The notes under the pieces were generated by a model, which was not told where the DNA came from, searched no databases, and saw nothing but the letters and a program-made list of their open reading frames with translations. A program made the translations under genes and the position numbers. A stretch of 34,208 nucleotides of DNA from Nitrososphaerota archaeon (GTDB lineage: Archaea; Thermoproteota; Nitrososphaeria; Nitrososphaerales; Nitrosopumilaceae), in the NCBI GenBank assembly GCA_022573895.1, contig JACZTB010000017.1:1-34208 (forward strand). Direction: 5' to 3'. How positions within the stretch are numbered: position 1 is the first letter of the stretch; the number at the start of each line of letters is the position of its first letter. Positions 7,373 through 33,824 of this stretch are shown here, piece after piece.

Positions 7373-7819
7373 TCATTCTTCTAATTTACTTTCTTGAAAA
7401 ACATCAGAGCCATACCAACAGTATCTAAAGTAATCAAGACACCATTCATGAAACATTGGATCGTCTCCATAGAACATTTCACTTATGTCTGCTTCACCCT
7501 TACGGTTTGGAAATAAAACACAGGCTTCTTTTTCATTAAGAACAACAACAGTCAATACAGTATCCCTCATCTTTCTTTCAACCAAACCCTTTTCAATCAA
7601 TTTATCAAAACCAAGTTTTTGTAGCAGATCCTTTCTACCTTTGGGTATAACTGCAGATTTTGAGAAAATATAGTTGAATTGGATTCCTTCCTTTATTCTT
7701 TTGACAATAGGTTCTATTAGATCCAAAGGAACTTCGTAAAACGCCTCATAGACGTATTCATTTGCATTTTTGTAGATTGATTTCCACGTAGATTCTTTGA
7801 TTTCAAATGGTTGATCCAT
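7373..7819 (-). CDS. Regulator-type C-terminal domain lacking its DNA-binding head
   Basis: A 148-residue protein whose sequence (VPLDLIEPIVKRIKEG, SAVIPKGRKDLLQKLG, VLTVVVLNEKEACVLFP, then FHEWCLDYFRYCW) looks like the C-terminal ligand-sensing domain of archaeal winged-helix regulators of the FilR1/DUF1724 kind. Those proteins normally carry an HTH domain of some 80-100 residues in front, which is missing. Immediately upstream, in another frame, lies the N-terminal piece of a tyrosine recombinase. The simplest reading is a deletion that fused two genes. It may be a pseudogene or survive as a sensor domain. The family assignment is tentative. Confidence 0.45.
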   Translation of the reverse strand: MDQPFEIKESTWKSIYKNANEYVYEAFYEVPLDLIEPIVKRIKEGIQFNYIFSKSAVIPKGRKDLLQKLGFDKLIEKGLVERKMRDTVLTVVVLNEKEACVLFPNRKGEADISEMFYGDDPMFHEWCLDYFRYCWYGSDVFQESKLEE

Positions 7820-8022
7820 TCTTTTAGGAAGTTTTGGATTTGGTGTACAGGTACTTTGATGAATTCATCATAGCTTCTAAGATTATGAAATCTCATGAAT
7901 TCATTTAGTGATCTAACATAGTTTTCCAAAGTTTTTTCATTGTTAATTGCTGAAACAAAGTTATCCCATGCTTCATCTTTGAAGATTGGGTCTACTTTAC
8001 GCATGGTGTAGTATAGTTTCAA
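7717..8022 (-). pseudogene. Tyrosine recombinase (integrase), N-terminal fragment
   Basis: A 101-residue frame starting at 8022. Residues about 10-75 look like the SAM-like core-binding domain of a tyrosine recombinase: WDNFVSAINNEKTLENYVRSLNEFMRF, then VHQIQNFLKEWINHLKSK. The catalytic domain is absent. The last 34 codons overlap, in a different frame, the start of the regulator-like gene and look like random read-through. The fragment starts 28 bases inside the right copy of the 19-bp repeat, the place an integrase gene is expected in an integrated element. Confidence 0.55.
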
Positions 8023-11009: not shown

Positions 11010-11231
11010 TTGACTAAAGATATCTTTGAAAAAGAAAAGATCAATCTGACTCCTGAAGCAGGGTTTGATTTAGTTGGAATTGATTATTTTGCAGACTCTG
11101 GAAATCAATTGTACCTAGTTAAGCATTTTGAGATATATCAAGATGCTTTGAACGCCAGAAAAGAGAGGAAAAATCCAAATGAATATTTTATTTTGTATAA
11201 AGGGGTTGGGGGAGAATTTTTTTATAGATAA
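11010..11231 (+). CDS. Conserved-looking 73-residue protein, unknown function
   Basis: A small soluble protein starting with TTG (TKDIFEKEKINLTPEAGFDLVG). It has a strand-rich middle (QLYLVKHFEIYQDALNARKER) and ends in EYFILYKGVGGEFFYR. There is no membrane segment, no cysteine pair and no motif I can name. It lies 25 bases after the ASCH gene on the same strand. Codon usage and a non-repetitive composition make it a believable gene, but only its position hints at a link to the ASCH and nuclease-like genes. Confidence 0.5.
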   Translation: MTKDIFEKEKINLTPEAGFDLVGIDYFADSGNQLYLVKHFEIYQDALNARKERKNPNEYFILYKGVGGEFFYR

Positions 11232-24380: not shown

Positions 24381-24602
24381 TTATTTCTTGGATTTTCTCA
24401 TTGCGTCTATTTGACCAGAAGTAATCCAGTCAAGTAATTCTGCAGAAGAGGGATTGAGTTCTGGTTTCTTATCCATCATATTTTTACACCACATCCAATT
24501 GAGTTGATTCAAGATAGGAACGTTTGCTTCGTCATCTTTACGTGTTTTAGCGACGAGTGATTGATCCTGTGTTTTGATCCATTCGTCATAAGTTCTTCCC
24601 AT
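24381..24602 (-). CDS. 73-residue protein, unknown function (duplicate A)
   Basis: A small soluble protein (MGRTYDEWIKTQDQSLVAKT, then RKDDEANVPILNQLNW). It ends in a helix (AELLDWITSGQIDAMRKSKK). It is 73 residues long and has no motif I can name. It is one of two copies; the other is at 24949-25167. The start and end of the two are the same, whereas the middle differs (MWCKNMMDKKPEL here, IWVSNLLNKKPEL there). It is divergent from the broken aCPSF2 fragment. The retention of an intact frame in both copies suggests that both are expressed. Confidence 0.6.
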   Translation of the reverse strand: MGRTYDEWIKTQDQSLVAKTRKDDEANVPILNQLNWMWCKNMMDKKPELNPSSAELLDWITSGQIDAMRKSKK

Positions 24603-24709
24603 GTGGATCCGATCTTAGCTTACACTAATTAAAGCTTTTGAAGATTGTATAATAGTCACAATGATCGGTTCTCTTAGGTTTTAACGTAGTTGAGATTTTA
24701 TTTTAATTC

Positions 24710-24928
24710 TTGGATGTTAAAGTTTTAGGAGCTGCAAGTGAAGTTGGCAGATCTGGTTTTTTAGTTAATTGTAATGGAACAAACCTCTTGCTTGATTATG
24801 GAGTAATGTTTGGAAGAAGAGGAACACCCCCAGTGTATCCACTTCATGTAAAACCCAAGGATCTAGATGCAATCATAATTACTCAAACAAAACAACATGA
24901 TGAAAAATGCAAAGGAAATTGGATTTAA
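24710..24928 (+). pseudogene. Truncated 5' copy of aCPSF2
   Basis: The first 58 codons match those of the intact aCPSF2 gene at 25281 with one change (N for K at residue 25). After IIIT the sequence jumps to what would be codon ~112 of the intact gene, out of frame, and ends QTKQHDEKCKGNWI-stop. The metal-binding HAHLDH is deleted, so no nuclease can result. It is a relic of the tandem duplication. The promoter and TTG start are preserved, so a 72-residue peptide could still be made. Confidence 0.8.
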
Positions 24929-24948: not shown

Positions 24949-25167
24949 TTACTTGGATTTTCTCATTGCGTCTATTTGACCAGAAGTAACCCATTCAAGT
25001 AATTCAGCAGCAGAAGGGTTTAACTCTGGTTTCTTATTCAAAAGATTACTAACCCAAATCCAGTTGAGTTGATTCAAGATAGGAACGTTTGCTTCGTCAT
25101 CTTTGCGTGTTTTAGCGACGAGTGATTGATCCTGTGTTTTGATCCATTCTGCATAGGTTCTACCCAT
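24949..25167 (-). CDS. 72-residue protein, unknown function (duplicate B)
   Basis: The paralogue of the gene at 24381 (MGRTYAEWIKTQDQSLVAKT, then RKDDEANVPILNQLNW). It differs mainly in the middle (IWVSNLLNKKPEL) and at a few positions later (AAELLEWVTSGQ). It is divergent from the intact aCPSF2 gene, 113 bases away, with a shared promoter region, probably the ancestral arrangement. There is no signal peptide, membrane segment or catalytic motif. Confidence 0.6.
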   Translation of the reverse strand: MGRTYAEWIKTQDQSLVAKTRKDDEANVPILNQLNWIWVSNLLNKKPELNPSAAELLEWVTSGQIDAMRKSK

Positions 25168-25280
25168 GTGGATTCGATCTTAGATTAGACTAATTAAAGC
25201 TTTTGTAGATAATATGGTACTCACAATGATCGGTTCTACTCTAAGAAGGTTTTAACGTCGTTGAGATTTTATTTTAATTC

Positions 25281-26546
25281 TTGGATGTTAAAGTTTTAGG
25301 AGCTGCAAGTGAAGTTGGCAGATCTGGTTTTTTAGTTAATTGTAATGGAACAAAACTCTTGCTTGATTATGGAGTAATGTTTGGAAGAAGAGGAACACCC
25401 CCAGTGTATCCACTTCATGTAAAACCCAAGGATCTAGATGCAATCATAATTACTCATGCACACCTTGATCATTCAGGAAATGTCCCATCTCTTTTTGTAA
25501 GTGGGAATACTGATGTCTATGCTACGCCGCCAACCTTTGATCTAACAGAGTTATTGATTGAAGATATGTTGAAAATTGAAAAGAATTCACACCCATTTGA
25601 CCTACCTGAACTTAACAACATGATGAAAAATGCCAAGGAAATTGGATTTAAACAAAAAGTCACCAAGGGAAATGCAACTTTTGAGTTAAGAGAATCAGGG
25701 CATGTAATCGGTGGAAGTAGTGTTCTGGTAGAATCAGAGAAAAAACGACTTTTCTACACTGGAGATATCAAAACAAATGGTTCAAGAATGCTTCGAGAGG
25801 CAGACTTTGATATAGGTGAAATTGATCTTCTGATTACTGAGAGCACTTATTCTCAAACAGAACAAAAACCTAGAAGAGAATCAGAAAATGAATTAATTGA
25901 ATTTGCAAATGAAGTAATGGACAGAAAAGGAATCCTATTCATTCCATCATTTTCAGTTGAACGTTCTCAAGAGATTGCATGTATTTTAAAGAATGCGAAC
26001 TTTAAACACAAAATTATCATGGATGGAATGGCACTCAAAGTAAATGAAATAATGTTTAGACATATGGAATATTTACGAGACCCCAAAGTTTTTGCTGATG
26101 CAATTAATGGTGCAGTTGCAATTAGAGAACATAGTGAAAGAAAACGTGCAATGGATGAACCTTGTGTAGTAATTTCACCTGCTGGAATGCTAGTTGGAGG
26201 AAATGCTGTATTTTATTTACAACATCTGGCATTTGATGATAAAAATGGAATTGCTTTAGTATCGTACCAAGGTGAAGGAACACCAGGAAGAAAATTGCTA
26301 GAAATAGGAAAGGTATCAACAAGAGGTAAAGACGTCAATGTAACAGCAGAGGTAAAACAGTTTGAGTTTTCAGGACATGCAGATAGAAATGAATTGTTTG
26401 ATATGATCAAAAATATTAGAGGAAACCCCAAAGTATTGACAGTTCATGGAGATTCTGAATCGTGTAACATGTTTGCGCAAGAAATTCATGAGAAATTTGG
26501 TTTAGAAGCATATGCACCTGCAGTAAATGAAACAATAACTGTCTGA
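25281..26546 (+). CDS. aCPSF2-type beta-CASP ribonuclease
   Basis: A 421-residue metallo-beta-lactamase/beta-CASP nuclease starting with TTG. Motif 2 is HAHLDHSG (residues 59-66), followed by GHVIGGSS (motif 3 histidine), YTGDIK (motif 4 aspartate), and the beta-CASP motifs ending in VISPAGM and FSGHADRNE, with a last HGD in TVHGDSES. There is no N-terminal KH region, which marks the aCPSF2 branch rather than aCPSF1. It cleaves or trims RNA. Its 5' part is duplicated upstream. The glycosylase gene starts one base after it, in one operon. Confidence 0.9.
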   Translation: MDVKVLGAASEVGRSGFLVNCNGTKLLLDYGVMFGRRGTPPVYPLHVKPKDLDAIIITHAHLDHSGNVPSLFVSGNTDVYATPPTFDLTELLIEDMLKIEKNSHPFDLPELNNMMKNAKEIGFKQKVTKGNATFELRESGHVIGGSSVLVESEKKRLFYTGDIKTNGSRMLREADFDIGEIDLLITESTYSQTEQKPRRESENELIEFANEVMDRKGILFIPSFSVERSQEIACILKNANFKHKIIMDGMALKVNEIMFRHMEYLRDPKVFADAINGAVAIREHSERKRAMDEPCVVISPAGMLVGGNAVFYLQHLAFDDKNGIALVSYQGEGTPGRKLLEIGKVSTRGKDVNVTAEVKQFEFSGHADRNELFDMIKNIRGNPKVLTVHGDSESCNMFAQEIHEKFGLEAYAPAVNETITV

Positions 26547-27401: not shown

Positions 27402-27423
27402 GGCAATTAATTGCTAAGTTTTT

Positions 27424-27498
27424 GGGCCCATAGCTCAGCATGGATAGAGTGTTGGACTTCTAATCCAATGGTCAAGGGATCGAAGCCCTTTGGGCCCG
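27424..27498 (+). tRNA. tRNA-Arg (anticodon TCT)
   Basis: A full cloverleaf can be drawn: acceptor GGGCCCA pairs with TGGGCCC, D stem GCTC with GAGT, anticodon stem TTGGA with TCCAA around the loop CTTCTAA, and T stem AAGGG with CCCTT around ATCGAAG. The anticodon TCT reads AGA (and AGG by wobble). The discriminator is G. CCA is not encoded and no intron is seen. The adjoining recombinase gene makes its 3' half a likely integration site. Confidence 0.93.
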
Positions 27499-27541
27499 TA
27501 CCCTTTGATGGGACTAAAATAGTTCCACTGTATAAACATCC

Positions 27542-28957
27542 TTGTTGGAAATATCAATTGATGACATAAACAAGCGCAGTGAACCATACCAGTTATTCTT
27601 AGATTCCATCAAAAGTCCAGAGACAGCTAGAAAATACAAGAATGCACTACACTCGTTTCTCAAGATTGTTCCAGTAAAACTATACTCTGATACCTTAAAC
27701 AAAACACCAAAAGACCAAGAGTCCTCAACACTTGCAAGCTTTTTTGTCAAACTGTCGGAAAAAGATCCAAATCTTGTATCCAATGTAATTGCCACTTTCA
27801 TAAAAAATGAAAGAAAGCTTGTAGAGTCTGGAGAGATGAGCTCAAACACTTTACCAAACCACATCAAGCCAATCAGGGCTTTACTTGATGCAAATCGTAT
27901 ACCACTTCACTGGAAGTCACTAAACAGACTCTTGCCAAGACGCGAATCAAGATCAGATGACAGGGCCTATACCAGAGCAGAGATTCAAAAGATGATTGAG
28001 GTTGCACCAGACATTACTGACAAGCTTATCATACTACTCTTCTCATCTGGTGGATTTAGGCTAGAGTCATGGAACTATTTTACTTGGAAGGATTACGTCC
28101 CTTTCAAAAACAAAGATGGTTCCTACAAGGGCGGAGCAATGCTCGTATACCGTGGAGACCCAGAAAGCTACTGGACCTTCATCACTCCTGAGGCATGCAA
28201 GACATTGGAGATATACCGTGAAAAATGGAATTCAGAGATTGGAGCATATCCAAGACCTGATGATCCTTTAATCAAGGCTGTAAAGTATCCTGTGATTCGT
28301 ATACTTAATGCAAGAGGAATAAAAAAGAGAGTAGACAAGATTGTAACAAAGATAGGATTGAGACCTCCTCTTCCACCAGGAAAGAAGAGACATGAGGTAC
28401 AGCTGGATCATGGATTCAGGAAATACTTTAACACCATGATGAGACGTGCCAAGGTAAACTATCTGGACAAAGAGGACATGATGGGACACAAGGTCGGCCT
28501 GGAACGACACTACGAACGCTACCTGGAAGAAGACTTTGAGCGGTTCCCAGAGTATGAAAAGGCAATTCCGTTTCTTACCATTTCAGATGAAGAAAGACTA
28601 CGATTTGAGAACGAACAAAAGCAACAAGAGATTGAGGAGATAGAACAAAAGAATCTAGAGTTGCAGGATCTCTCAACAAGGATTGACGAGCTAGAACACG
28701 GACCAAAGGCAAGAAGTGCAGGATATTTCAGAGACATGTTCGATATGAGAGATGATTCTGCTGGCAGGATACTGCTGGCAATATTCTATATATGGTTTGA
28801 GATGAGGGCCACCGAGGATGAGAAGAGAACCATCTGGAAAAAAATACAAGATGCAGAAAAGAATGGGAAAACATTTTCTGTCTCAGAATTTGGCAAGTCT
28901 GATGGTTTGAGCTGGAAAAACTTGTCCTCTTCAACTAAAAGTCATGATAATTCATAA
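27542..28957 (+). CDS. Tyrosine recombinase (integrase)
   Basis: A 471-residue protein. The N-terminal core-binding domain starts at about residue 15 (YQLFLDSIKSPETARKY). The catalytic residues are R in SSGGFRLESW (about 173), HxxR in DHGFRKYF (H290, R293), a second H in MMGHKVG and Y in RHYERY (324 or 327). A long coiled coil of E and Q follows (about 345-385), then a helical C-terminus. Start codon TTG. It begins 44 bases after a tRNA gene, the typical place of an integrated element. G+C is about 38-45% in sampled stretches, above its neighbours, which suggests transfer. Confidence 0.85.
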   Translation: MLEISIDDINKRSEPYQLFLDSIKSPETARKYKNALHSFLKIVPVKLYSDTLNKTPKDQESSTLASFFVKLSEKDPNLVSNVIATFIKNERKLVESGEMSSNTLPNHIKPIRALLDANRIPLHWKSLNRLLPRRESRSDDRAYTRAEIQKMIEVAPDITDKLIILLFSSGGFRLESWNYFTWKDYVPFKNKDGSYKGGAMLVYRGDPESYWTFITPEACKTLEIYREKWNSEIGAYPRPDDPLIKAVKYPVIRILNARGIKKRVDKIVTKIGLRPPLPPGKKRHEVQLDHGFRKYFNTMMRRAKVNYLDKEDMMGHKVGLERHYERYLEEDFERFPEYEKAIPFLTISDEERLRFENEQKQQEIEEIEQKNLELQDLSTRIDELEHGPKARSAGYFRDMFDMRDDSAGRILLAIFYIWFEMRATEDEKRTIWKKIQDAEKNGKTFSVSEFGKSDGLSWKNLSSSTKSHDNS

Positions 28958-29352
28958 TCCTAATGGTAATTAACGAAGCAATGGTGTGAATCTGTCAAGG
29001 TTTGAGCTCCAGAGCCCAAATCCGTATGCAGGAAGTCCAATCAACCATTCAGGCAATGCTCTGAAGCTTGAAAATACTCAACCATGAGATTTTCATACTG
29101 TAGCTTATGAAGCTGGAACAAAAATCTGTAGCTAAACAGCTACAGATAAGCTACATTAGCTGTTGTAGCTACAGTTGTCGTGCGTAGAAAGCAGCTACAA
29201 ATCAGCTACAACTACGCCTGAAAAGCTACAGAAGCTGTTTTGTAGCTGTAGCTAGGCACGACACTGTAAAATACAGCTACAAGTTACAACTACAAGAGGA
29301 GCTACAGGAGCTTCATTCGTAAACTTTTACGCACGGCAATTAGCTAATTAGA

Positions 29353-29378
29353 TGCGTAGTCCTATGGAAGATTACGCA
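29353..29378. repeat. 26-bp palindrome P1
   Basis: Arms TGCGTAGTC and GATTACGCA (one mismatch) enclose an 8-base centre. It has the same layout as P2 and P3 and lies upstream of the exported HExxH gene. Confidence 0.65.
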
Positions 29379-29432
29379 GTTATTGACTGTTAAAATTAGC
29401 TTAAATTTTTATGGTCGACCTTTTTCCAAGTG

Positions 29433-29462
29433 CAAATGAGTTTATTGACAATCAGTAAAAAT
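29433..29462. repeat. 30-bp direct repeat, copy 1
   Basis: These thirty bases beginning CAAATGAGTTTATTGACA are identical to 33672-33701. The two copies, 4239 bp apart, enclose the three cargo genes. Confidence 0.8.
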
Positions 29463-29571
29463 AGAATGCCCCTCACTCACGTCTAACTTTGTGTCGCTTT
29501 CTCGTTATGACGTAGGTTATGATTCAGTGAAATTAGATCAGATTTATCTAAAACTTTGATGATGTTACATT

Positions 29572-30408
29572 GTGTTGAAAAAAGCACCCATCGTCGTAAT
29601 TTTATGTCTTGCAACTATTGGCGTTACAGCATCCTTAACATTTGTATCAGCTGAAGAAAATTACAGCATACCGACATGGATAAAAAACAGTGCAAAATGG
29701 TGGGGAGAAGGTCTAATCGGTGATTCTGATTTTATCAGCGGCATAAAATATCTTATAGAAAATGACATTATGATCATTAAACAAGATTCTAATTATCAGC
29801 CTTCAATAATGATTGAACAAGAAACGGGTATTCCAGTTGAATATAATGTGATCTTTATGACTTCTAGTGATAATTGTACTTGGGAAGAATTTGGTAAGAT
29901 GCACTTTTACAATGAGGTTACATATTATTATCTACAGGAGTGGGGGCTAGAACCGACATACGTAGATCCGCTTTGCCTTCCTAACACTGTTTTGGATGAT
30001 GTTCCAGAGGAATATTTGGGATATGATCTTACTATACTTATGGTCGATTATGTCATTACGCAAGAATATCTTATTGAACATTGGCATGCATGGGGATATT
30101 ACAATCCGAGTGCAAGAATGATAGTTTCTGGTGAGCTTACTGATATTATGGCAGAATATGGTCTATTAACTGTAGATGATATTGCAAGTGAATGGGTACT
30201 AACACATGAGCTTTCACACTTTGTATTAGACTATTTAGGAGAGCCTGAATCAATTATGGTTGATTGGGTACATGATACAGAAAACTGGAACAGATTTTGT
30301 ATTTTAGAAGATCCATATCATCCGACCTGTGATGAAATTTACAGTGAGCTTGAAGTTAATGGTATGAGAGTATTAGTTATGGAACCTTATGCTTACTATA
30401 TCCCGTGA
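29572..30408 (+). CDS. Exported protein with HExxH zinc-protease motif
   Basis: A 278-residue protein starting with GTG. A signal peptide (about residues 1-27, ending VSA-EE) is followed by a module seen in surface proteins of marine Thaumarchaeota (IPTWIKNSAKWWGEGLIGDS, then DFISGIKYLIEN). The rest has HELSH at residues 212-216 in a helical context (SEWVLTHELSHFVLDYL), the zinc and catalytic pattern of a gluzincin or metzincin, and several cysteines (CTW, CLP, CIL, CDE) for disulphides. A third zinc ligand is not obvious. It is probably a surface metallopeptidase. P1 and P2 bracket it. Confidence 0.6.
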   Translation: MLKKAPIVVILCLATIGVTASLTFVSAEENYSIPTWIKNSAKWWGEGLIGDSDFISGIKYLIENDIMIIKQDSNYQPSIMIEQETGIPVEYNVIFMTSSDNCTWEEFGKMHFYNEVTYYYLQEWGLEPTYVDPLCLPNTVLDDVPEEYLGYDLTILMVDYVITQEYLIEHWHAWGYYNPSARMIVSGELTDIMAEYGLLTVDDIASEWVLTHELSHFVLDYLGEPESIMVDWVHDTENWNRFCILEDPYHPTCDEIYSELEVNGMRVLVMEPYAYYIP

Positions 30409-30596: not shown

Positions 30597-32546
30597 ATGA
30601 AAATCGATTGGATAAAAATTTCTAATGTTTTCAGTTTCAAATATCATGAAAATATTGATCAGGGGCCAACAATAGTTTTCGACAAAAATTTGAATATTCT
30701 AATAGGACCTAATGGTTCAGGGAAAAGTAATTTTCTAGAGATTATCAATCAGGTTTTCCGTAAATTTTTTTTCCGTGATTGTCCGCTTTCACTTGAAAAA
30801 ACAATCGAACTACAGTCCTTATCAGGGAATGATAGAACAAATCAACTTAATAATATAACCCTGCAGAAAAATCACAATTTTCAAAAAAATAATAACTTTA
30901 AAGAAAAACCGTTCGAAATTAAAATCCAAATTAAATTTTCACCAAAAGATCGTGAAAATTTTCAATTTATTTTTCAGCATAGGGATAAGATCGTAGGAAT
31001 GTTAAAAGAATATTATGAAATAGGAACTTCATTCCAAATTTCTACAATCACAGAACAGGATTTAACAAATTTAGAAAACTTGGAATTTAGTATTTCAGAA
31101 TCAATAGATCCTAGACAAAATCGGAGACAATTAAAGATTAGCCAATCTTTAACAGAAATTGAACAATTCGTTTATGATTATTTGGTTTGGTTCGAATTTA
31201 TTCAAAATATAATTTTAATCGCCAATGAAAAATTATCGATGGATTGGGAACCTCTCAAAAATACCTTCGCTTTGATTGGTTCCAGTAGAGAATACCAACA
31301 ATTCGACAAAAACTTTACTGTAGAAAGTAAAGGAGAGAGATATCAAAATTTGAAAAACAAACTTGCGGAAGAATCAACTATTAAAATTGAATCTGGTGAA
31401 CCTAGTGCCTTAACCTATGTGAAACTTAAACTTGCATTTGAATACACAAGAATAATCAATGAAATGGCACGTGGGGGTATTTCAAATCAAGACGCCAATG
31501 CTGAAGAAGTCTTAAAAGATTCTCCGTTATTCAAACAAATTAACACCTTTCTAAAAGATTCAATCGACTTAGAATTAAGGGTAAAAAAAGTTAGTGATTT
31601 CAGTTTAGACTATGATTTTTCATTTGTAGACAAAAATGGGATTGAGATACAAATTGGAGAGTTAAGTTCAGGTCAAAGAGGTATAATTCATTTCATTTTT
31701 AGTATTTTCGGTTATGATTTAGAAAACGGCCTCATGATTATCGATGAACCTGAATTGCATATTCATCCTCAGATGCAAGAAAGATATATAGAAATTATGA
31801 AAAATGCGATGGAAAGTCAGAACATTCAATTTATTGTTGCTACACACTCTCCTGTTTTTGTCAATGAAACAACTGTTGATGGCGTACATAGATTTCATTT
31901 AGAAAACGGATACACTCAAGTAGTTAAACCCACAATTTCTACTCAACAAAAACATCTCGTAAAAATTTTAGATTACACTAACTCTTCAAAAATTTTCTTC
32001 TCAAATAAAGTTATTTTAGTTGAAGGTATTACTGACGAATATTTTTTCAAACATTTTTTGGGAGATTATAAGGTAGTTCAAGAATTACAAGATAAAAGGA
32101 AAAACATTTCAGATATAGAAATCTTGAATTTAGAGGGAAAAACGAATTATCCATTTGTGAAAAATTTTCTAAATGAATTCAGAATTAAATCTTATTTCAT
32201 CGGTGATTTGGACAACATTTTCACTTTACCTAATCCCATTCTAGGACCAAATTTAAAACTAAGATTTGGCGGTGGAAATACTACAAATAAACAAATTATC
32301 CAAAATATTAAAGCCAATCAACAAACGGAATGGTCTCAAATCCGTGTTGAGATCTTTCTAAGATATTTTTACAATGTTTTTCTGCTTCGAGAGGGAGAGT
32401 TGGAAGATTATATTGGGAGAAGTCAAGGCAAACTGGAGAATGTAATTATTTTTTGCAGAGATCACTTTTCTAATTGGAAAAACACTAATACCAACTATTT
32501 ACAGGAATTTAATTTTATTTTCACAAACATTTTAAATGATCATTAA
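30597..32546 (+). CDS. OLD-like ATPase with C-terminal TOPRIM nuclease domain
   Basis: A 649-residue protein. Walker A is GPNGSGKS (residues 37-44), the ABC-type signature is LSSGQRG near 355-361, and Walker B is GLMIIDEPELHIHP near 377-390, with the switch histidine in VATHSPV. After about residue 465 comes a TOPRIM domain: KVILVEGITDEYFF with its catalytic Glu and GDLDN for the metal aspartates. This order is that of OLD-family nucleases, which include the GajA part of Gabija and the phage P2 Old protein, many of them defence proteins. No UvrD-like helicase follows; a protease gene does. Residues 60-330 are helical and divergent. Confidence 0.8.
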   Translation: MKIDWIKISNVFSFKYHENIDQGPTIVFDKNLNILIGPNGSGKSNFLEIINQVFRKFFFRDCPLSLEKTIELQSLSGNDRTNQLNNITLQKNHNFQKNNNFKEKPFEIKIQIKFSPKDRENFQFIFQHRDKIVGMLKEYYEIGTSFQISTITEQDLTNLENLEFSISESIDPRQNRRQLKISQSLTEIEQFVYDYLVWFEFIQNIILIANEKLSMDWEPLKNTFALIGSSREYQQFDKNFTVESKGERYQNLKNKLAEESTIKIESGEPSALTYVKLKLAFEYTRIINEMARGGISNQDANAEEVLKDSPLFKQINTFLKDSIDLELRVKKVSDFSLDYDFSFVDKNGIEIQIGELSSGQRGIIHFIFSIFGYDLENGLMIIDEPELHIHPQMQERYIEIMKNAMESQNIQFIVATHSPVFVNETTVDGVHRFHLENGYTQVVKPTISTQQKHLVKILDYTNSSKIFFSNKVILVEGITDEYFFKHFLGDYKVVQELQDKRKNISDIEILNLEGKTNYPFVKNFLNEFRIKSYFIGDLDNIFTLPNPILGPNLKLRFGGGNTTNKQIIQNIKANQQTEWSQIRVEIFLRYFYNVFLLREGELEDYIGRSQGKLENVIIFCRDHFSNWKNTNTNYLQEFNFIFTNILNDH

Positions 32547-32674: not shown

Positions 32675-33579
32675 ATGAATAAAGATATCATTCCTAACAT
32701 AAAATCTTCTGTTGTAGCAATTGGGTTGATTGATTCTAACAGTAATCCAATTGTAGTGGGGGGTAGTGGATTTGTTGTTCATCGAGAAGAGTATATTGTA
32801 ACTACATCACATGTAATAACAGATCTAGGAAAAGAACAAAAACGAATTCTTGATGAAAATAAAATAAAAACTTTCATGACGATTTTTGATTATCAGGTAA
32901 AAGGTGATGGATTTAGAATGATTAATGCACCAATTGGGAAAATCAAATTTTTGAAATTAATTCCTACTCAACAAGTGGGTGGTTTGATATGGATATTGCA
33001 TTGCTCCGACCTAAAGAACAAAAAAACAATCATAATTTTTTAACAATAAGTAACAGAAATCATTATTCACTTTTTGAAGAGATTTATGTTTGTGGATATC
33101 CTGGAGGGGATTATACTTTCAAAACGATTGCACATCCAATAGAAATTAGTCTTAGCCCAATTATTCAAATTGGAAAGATTGCATCTTTAAAACCAGGTGA
33201 TAATGCACCAATCCACAGTGGAATAATTACTGATATTATGGGAGTAGGAGGTTCAAGTGGTTCACCAATACTAGATGCAAATTCAGGCGAAGTGATTGGC
33301 ATTGTTCAAAATATTATTCCTGGAAAGCTGTATGAGTGTAGATCTTCATACATACAAAGACTTTACACATTGAACAGTGAAACAAAAGAACTCGTTGAAA
33401 AAGAAGTTAAATCAGAAGGACCAGCTTATGGACCAGTTAATGTGGGGTTGATGTATGGTCATACCAATATTATGTTCAAGCAAATTGGAAAATATGCTAA
33501 AGAAATTGTTGAAACCGATAAGGAAATTCCAGACTTGAAAACAAACTACAGCATTCCTCAAATGCAAAAAGTTGAATAG
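32675..33579 (+). pseudogene. Trypsin-like serine protease split by a one-base frameshift
   Basis: Two frames together make one chymotrypsin-fold protease of about 300 residues. The first (32675-33043) has the oxyanion-side start GGSGFVVHREEYIVTTSHVI with the catalytic H46. The second (32989-33579) has the aspartate in MDIALLRP and the serine in GVGGSSGSPIL (S90 of that frame). A single missing base near 32976-32985 separates them: adding a T in the GGTTTG run would read GGFDMDIALLRP without a break. It may be a pseudogene, a phase-variable gene or a sequencing error. There is no signal peptide, so it would be cytoplasmic like other defence proteases. Confidence 0.75.
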
Positions 33580-33671: not shown

Positions 33672-33701
33672 CAAATGAGTTTATTGACAATCAGTAAAAA
33701 T
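33672..33701. repeat. 30-bp direct repeat, copy 2
   Basis: Identical to 29433-29462. In the first copy the palindrome lies 54 bases before the repeat; here it lies two bases before. Confidence 0.8.
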
Positions 33702-33824
33702 GGTATCCTAGGCTAAATTCATACCTGATTTACTAATACGCACTAGCAACTACATTTGTAATCAAATGATAATAAGTTATGAAGTGATTAATTAGTAGTA
33801 ACTGTTAAAACTGATCAAGCCACT

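Follow-up and report, generated by a model that had tools for sequence, protein, structure and literature searches.

The cluster of AGCTAC/GTAGCT hexamers in the window (the whole stretch of DNA analyzed here, 34,208 nucleotides) may well be the leader module of an integron-like cassette array peculiar to Nitrosopumilaceae, that is, an attI- or cer-like accessory region of the lead site that would be read by a recombination complex. We hold this reading with middling confidence. Sequence comparison gives good support to the architecture, to the way it recurs, and to its co-variation, and from these we infer the molecular reading of module and site. In the general layout, a block of approximately 250 bp, in which one short word is repeated in a single orientation or in both, lies directly against a palindromic site of 26 bp, and the genes beyond it are split by sites of the same family with different centers. 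The functional unit exceeds the span described in an earlier note on this DNA; it comprises the module (approximately 29060-29345) together with the adjoining palindromic site, and both this site and the cassette array holding it had been overlooked (Table 1).

Table 1. Features of the window around the hexamer module and the cassette array
Feature	Position	Strand	Basis or remark
tRNA-Arg (TCT), probable integration target (attL side)	27423..27499	+	ARAGORN, Rfam
Tyrosine integrase, 471 aa, C-terminal extension	27542..28957	+	weak NCBIfam recomb_XerA_Arch 7.6e-9, below cutoff; relatives in many family genomes
Degenerate palindromic site TTCATAATC-CTAATGGT-AATTAACGA, left of module	28951..28976	.	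scan; center type as L076:7918
Hexamer-repeat module, 13 AGCTAC/GTAGCT (29100-29305) and 3′ arm of long inverted repeat	29100..29345	+	homologues in G000:C50 and G010:C73 (two)
Perfect 10-bp hairpin ATCTGTAGCT/AGCTACAGAT	29124..29147 (29124-29133 with 29138-29147)	.	stem identical in all four copies
Left arm of long-range helix (columns 147-170 of alignment A1)	29166..29189	.	pairs with 29325-29346
Right arm of long-range helix	29325..29346	.	inverted repeat and four-copy alignment
Dif-like palindromic site TGCGTAGTC-CTATGGAA-GATTACGCA, lead site of array	29353..29378	.	site scan
Box AAATTTTTATGGTCGACCTTTTTCC, at similar distance from many lead sites	29403..29427	+	11 of 14 boxes in loci ≤100 bp from a site
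Cassette gene 1, secreted-protein-like ORF with VLTHELSHF (zinc-peptidase-like) motif	29572..30408	+	ORF list
Dif-like site TTCGTAATC-CTAGGGGA-GATTACGAA	30455..30480	.	exact match
Cassette gene 2, OLD/Gabija-type AAA-TOPRIM nuclease, defense-like	30597..32546	+	Pfam AAA_21 5.7e-25, OLD-like_TOPRIM 2.3e-13; PADLOC Old 1.7e-28, GajA 6.5e-27
Cassette gene 3, trypsin-like-protease-type, two overlapping frames	32675..33579	+	ORFs 32675-33043 and 32989-33579; weak PADLOC protease matches
Dif-like site TTCGTAATC-TTAGATAG-GATTACGAA	33644..33669	.	exact match

The hexamer module and its homologues

The earlier note had counted thirteen hexamers in both orientations where well under one would be expected, and this is borne out: eight forward and five reverse exact copies lie at 29100-29305, against a chance expectation of approximately 0.03 in 206 bp derived from dinucleotide shuffles. 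The full window holds 19 copies (mean 5.4 and maximum 13 per window in 100 shuffles). As the note also held, the cluster is neither coding, according to the ORF list, nor a CRISPR array, which is rejected on the irregular spacing, the two orientations, and the absence from the window of any CRISPR repeat family of Rfam at gathering score (CRISPR-DR33 appears only at E 8). In the Rfam search of the window the gathering score is reached by the tRNA alone, with weak matches at E ≥ 0.12 only; no Rfam family fits the module, and a known RNA family is likewise rejected. Of the structures described in the earlier note, the hairpin exists, but its stem is longer than the 8 bp given (Table 1), and its loop differs among the four homologous copies (AAAC, GTGT, TTTT). 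The larger structure closed by GTCGTGC/GCACGAC is real as regards its arms (TGTCGTGCGTAG/CTAGGCACGACA at 29176-29187 and 29252-29263, 92%), but the left arm pairs also with TTTTACGCACGGCAA at 29325-29339, outside the span first considered, and the four-copy alignment supports this longer helix.

The window corresponds to a complete contig (C25) in a genome of 92 contigs and 1.8 Mb (G000), which kinship and the named matches place in Nitrosopumilales, and the same genome has a second copy of the module on contig C50, with 91% identity over the core and 81% over 428 bp. The two contigs are separate and not joined in the assembly. At 130 bp from the C50 module there is an exact 13-nt repeat of the tRNA-Arg 3′ end (L015, approximately 11090-11105, minus strand), a candidate attR. 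In another genus of the family (G010), two copies stand 6.7 kb apart on one contig (C73), the second inverted and placed at the far end of the array, in an element headed by an integrase that adjoins tRNA-Met. This integrase is broken into two frames (L076:6440-6500, covering 1-210 and 208-465 of the query), so the element may be immobile or mis-assembled. Altogether, the modules' own genome and the family genomes searched yielded four homologous copies, each bounded on at least one side by the 26-bp palindrome, which recurs between the ORFs beyond; a search of 50,697 phage records gave no match. The search of other thaumarchaeal genomes for AGCTAC clusters that the earlier note recommended thus found homologues, and non-homologous modules with other hexamers occur in at least seven genomes. 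The cluster is not a simple expanded repeat of this strain only, as homologues exist on another contig and in another genus. A CAAGGT/ACCTTG cluster in the window's genome (L115 7460-7760, G000:C86) has 10 copies and a fold z of -6.6, and lies approximately 3.9 kb from the nearest recognized site.

The 471-aa integrase next to the module is probably the enzyme that inserts the entire element at the tRNA. It is rejected as the partner of the cluster, because a cluster and site lie downstream of only 1 of its 29 relatives, the window's own copy. For this integrase the outcome that the earlier note had named as fatal to a link with a recombinase, absence of the cluster wherever the recombinase occurs, is therefore what was found; the proposed tie to tyrosine recombinases fails here but stands for another recombinase, Rec312, described below. 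Two further observations concern the window's genes. A tandem duplication (24381-24928 and 24949-25500) comprises a small MGRTY(D/A)EWIKTQDQSLVAK protein gene and the start of a MDVKVLGAASEVG gene, of which there is a truncated 72-aa copy at 24710-24928 and a 421-aa copy at 25281-26546. An N-terminal integrase fragment (Phage_int_SAM_1, E 4.8e-4) at 7717-8022 and 7373-7819, overlapping another ORF, is a possible integrase remnant.

Palindromic sites, typed slots and the recombinase Rec312

The site has the consensus TTCGTAATC-N8-GATTACGAA, a 26-bp palindrome with 9-bp arms and an 8-bp center. The window's genome carries 33 sites versus 3 for the reversed control, and in the family the site is found in 37 of 250 genomes, with the control near 0. 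Among 85k GTDB genomes, exact matches occur on 27 contigs, 21 of them from Nitrosopumilales and the other six at about chance level; by this census the site appears essentially confined to Nitrosopumilales. In 60 loci (668 kb), 165 sites were found versus 9 in the control, with a median site-to-site spacing of approximately 0.65 kb; the loci were picked for carrying sites or recombinases, which biases the absolute rates and leaves the within-locus controls unaffected. The genome-wide controls drew on 60-77 loci, and most of the genomes are draft MAGs. Only 6 of the 165 sites fall inside ORFs of at least 100 aa, though such ORFs cover 72% of the DNA. Four IMG/VR contigs (L180-L183) carry TTCGTAATC-CTTTCGAA-GATTACGAA, with a fully palindromic different center, possibly an unrelated palindrome. 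A segment of approximately 45 nt, GAGTTTATTGACAATCAGTAAAAATAGAATGCCCC, occurs in the window at 29432-29473 and 33672-33702 and is scattered through 62 of 250 family genomes; in L029, L035, L037, and L044 it has the appearance of a conserved gene's 3′ end (...EFIDKE*) followed by downstream DNA, and it is perhaps a recurrent integration target. The widespread match of 50 nt downstream of the module's site (62 of 250 genomes) looks like a gene 3′ end and is rejected as part of the hexamer module.

The cargo of the arrays includes OLD/Gabija-like nucleases, SIR2, HNH, and NYN proteins, many of the genes being defense-like. In the window, cassette gene 1 has no Pfam or NCBIfam match, and the split of cassette gene 3 over two frames reflects a frameshift, an assembly error, or a pseudogene. 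Between loci, 10.6% of homology-block ends fall no more than 20 bp from a site, versus 1.2% at random; an NYN-nuclease cassette shared by G010 and G009 (97% identity over 643 bp) has one border at a site. The dominant site centers are CTATACAA, CATAGTAA, TAACTACA, CTATCTAA, and CTAGTACA. Seven to eight CATAGTAA..TAACTACA intervals, in four genomes, enclose unrelated DNA and have only the first and last approximately 27 bp in common, and the interiors of seven CATAGTAA..CTATACAA intervals are also unrelated. Ten recurrent pair types, 32 intervals altogether, lack homologous interiors. When centers were permuted within genomes, ordered and oriented pairs placed a mean of 3.3 (maximum 15) intervals in classes of at least three, compared with the 23 observed. 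Simple insertion that leaves same-centre borders in direct repeat is rejected, since such pairs show no excess (6 versus 4.5 in the permutation) and ordered pairs of different centers recur instead. Recurrent pairs with unrelated cargo look like the outcome of cassette exchange at addressed slots, an exchange that we infer. In G000, the same PAS/histidine-kinase region and upstream DNA stand behind an AGCTAC leader (C50; L015 11919-13868) and an ACTCAG leader (C43; L105 5100-5892), as expected of a shuffled cassette.

Rec312, a XerA-like tyrosine recombinase of approximately 312 aa, is present in 11 of 250 family genomes, 10 of which have palindromic sites (Fisher p 1.6e-8). Its best profile match is recomb_XerA_Arch (75-93 bits, cutoff 220), and the integron-integrase model TIGR02249 gives 25-34 bits (cutoff 265). 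A hexamer cluster of at least six copies lies within 600 bp downstream of Rec312 in 9 of 14 loci versus 2 of 600 random windows, and a recognizable site in 7 of 14 versus 4 of 600; five of the 14 loci lack a dense cluster right downstream. In further loci the arms of the sites are altered (CGGGTAATC or GCGC). The leader words downstream of Rec312 are AGCTTA, GTAGCA, AGCTAC, AAGCTA, CTAGCT, and ACAACT, with GGGGAAA, a nearly one-directional block (7:1), beyond one gene; TACGAC and ACTCAG blocks adjoin sites in two other loci, the latter following another integrase. One genome (G098) has three leaders with three words (AGCTAC, AAGCTA, GGGGAAA), which argues against a common host factor. In the recombinase tree, the recombinases of GCGC-armed sites, whose words are non-AGCT, form one group (support 83/92), and the two recombinases of GGGTAATC-armed sites group together (96/94). 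Rec312 consists of an N-terminal helical stretch of approximately 45 aa followed by core-binding and catalytic domains. With only this short extension, a lambda-like arm-binding domain is not evident, none being recognizable in Rec312, and a partner protein may be what reads the hexamers. A single-sequence AlphaFold model of Rec312 (pLDDT 36) was set aside. No Rec312 relatives were found in viral contigs, and a phylum-wide search outside the family had only distant recombinases (25-37%) among the matches listed.

Taken together, these data suggest a mechanism in which the palindromic site would be the core for strand exchange by Rec312. The hexamers and the inverted-repeat plan would form an accessory region read by the recombinase complex, by which the lead site would be distinguished from ordinary cassette sites. 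The 8-bp centers would be addresses, such that a cassette with two given centers would take the place of the DNA in the matching slot. In the window, the tRNA integrase beside the module would probably move the whole island, and the module's Rec312 partner would be missing or elsewhere; the only partial Rec312 of the genome (C22) has sites and no cluster. We also put forward, more tentatively, a wider proposal: a new cassette system in which an Xer-like recombinase could serve slots addressed by heterospecific pairs of 8-bp centers, a natural form of recombinase-mediated cassette exchange, and in which a fast-evolving, element-specific hexamer code, co-varying with the recombinase, could mark the lead site and let several such systems coexist in a cell.

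Folded forms, iterons and passive repeats

A reading of the module by protein agrees with the finding that the same place beside the site is filled by unrelated words, with blocks that run almost wholly one way (GGGGAAA 7:1), and with the changes in the diverged copy G010_b, where 7 of 13 hexamer positions have turned into AGCTTA-type words while the central hairpin kept AGCTAC; the same new word at so many positions is expected if one reader recognizes all. The inverted-repeat plan with its compensatory changes is more than simple iterated binding sites would need, and this keeps a folded role a serious rival. The module could act as a branched ssDNA hairpin, a structured recombinase substrate as attC is, or its + strand could be transcribed as a structured RNA; we think this unlikely on balance. 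The outer long-range helix has 22 pairs, 7 of them changed on both sides in the four-copy alignment, and 11 pairs in total show two-sided changes, where shuffles give 3.2 and slid structures 0-1. Three of these lie outside hexamers (columns 157/320, 158/319, 164/313). The changes stem, however, essentially from the single copy G010_b, and hairpin arms can be homogenized without selection. When RNA of both strands is folded, as the earlier note advised, both are far more stable than dinucleotide shuffles (z of -6.7 for the + strand and about -5.6 for the - strand of the window module), and the four homologous copies range from -4.5 to -7.6. Segment order raises stability in C50, G010_a, L186, and L197, the C50 (z -3.8) and G010_a (z -2.6) copies being unusually stable against re-ordered segments, but the window copy is no better than its own hexamers and spacers in another order (z -1.1; 14% of permutations equally stable). 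In leaders with GGGGAAA (7/8 the same way round), ACAACT, GTAGCA, or ACTCAG there is little structure that composition alone would not give. Moreover, no strand is consistently favored across modules, which, together with the lack of a fitting Rfam family, speaks against a strand-specific RNA in particular.

That the copies are a passive mobile repeat, MITE- or REP-like, or a functionless expanded simple repeat is improbable. The C50 copy and both G010 copies, bounded by imperfect inverted sites, do resemble a 330-bp MITE, and mutation alone can homogenize hairpin arms. A passive repeat fits poorly, however, with the mere four homologous copies that the search of the family genomes yielded and with a layout in which unrelated words fill the same place by the same recombinase and site. 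Of the 20 non-coding hexamer clusters of at least six copies in 816 kb, moreover, 14 have a site no farther than 300 bp away. Iterons of an integrated plasmid's replication origin would equally be repeated short words, element-specific and near integrases, in an element at a tRNA gene; yet no replication initiator gene is recognized beside the clusters examined, modules are paired at both ends of one element, the palindromic site always adjoins, and the phage records contain no match, so that we give this origin the least credence, slightly below the passive repeat.

Relation to known cassette systems and implications

Short words packed densely and in both orientations beside a recombination end are known from the subterminal motif clusters of the Ac/Spm transposons and the arm-type sites of phage lambda. 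The hexamer module is alike in this respect and differs in its tyrosine-recombinase cassette context and in that no arm-binding domain is recognized in Rec312. In cer and psi of ColE1 and pSC101, which serve plasmid dimer resolution, an Xer-type core is joined to approximately 200 bp of accessory sequences with ArgR/ArcA/PepA sites. The present sites share the Xer-type core with a one-sided region of similar length, whose accessory role is proposed by analogy; unlike in cer/psi, the putative accessory words are element-specific repeats and are tied to cassette arrays. Extra integrase sites also exist in attI of integrons.

Integrons (IntI/attI/attC), including the archaeal integrons of Ghaly et al. 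2022 (PMC9668308), likewise combine a tyrosine recombinase, an adjoining lead site, and an array of small cassettes parted by sites. The lead site beside the recombinase and the array beyond it are thus shared features, while an IntI-family integrase and attC sites are not: Rec312 scores far below the integron-integrase cutoff, and the approximately 60-bp attC hairpins contrast with 26-bp palindromes with typed 8-bp centers and border homology of approximately 27 bp (attC being judged by site length and border homology). The leader, a hexamer-repeat block, is a further difference. In the parts of the text searched, the archaeal-integron paper does not mention Nitroso- or Thaumarchae-. The dif/pdif modules of Acinetobacter plasmids (XerC/XerD; PMC6449649) are similar in being small adaptive gene modules with dif-like palindromic borders and variable centers. 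Genes bounded by sites of approximately 26-28 bp with inverted arms and a variable center, which define pdif modules, are what the 165 sites, almost all between ORFs, delimit here. They differ in hosts and sequences, in that the present sites appear tied to their own recombinase and not to chromosomal XerCD, in the many differing centers in recurrent order, and in the repeat-rich leader. The presence of sites in only 37 of 250 family genomes, co-occurring with Rec312, is also unlike a chromosomal dif. Integrated thaumarchaeal elements with an integrase beside a tRNA gene and defense cargo have been surveyed (Krupovic et al. 2019, PMC6563490); the searched parts of that survey do not describe dif-like cassette arrays or hexamer leaders. 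The passages searched in a review of archaeal tyrosine recombinases (PMC8371274) contain no such array, the literature covered being open access. By sequence, the system would operate much as integrons and pdif arrays do, yet it fails the integron tests on integrase family and attC. We know of no named equivalent for addressed slots combined with a hexamer leader.

Ammonia-oxidizing archaea rank with the most abundant ocean microbes, and the ways in which they acquire and exchange accessory and defense genes are poorly known. The hexamer leader poses a testable question, namely by what means a tyrosine recombinase singles out the entry site of an array. If the proposal is true, it would add new recombinases with many mutually exclusive sites and a second cassette architecture beside integrons, and a typed-slot cassette platform would explain part of the flexible genome of ammonia-oxidizing archaea.
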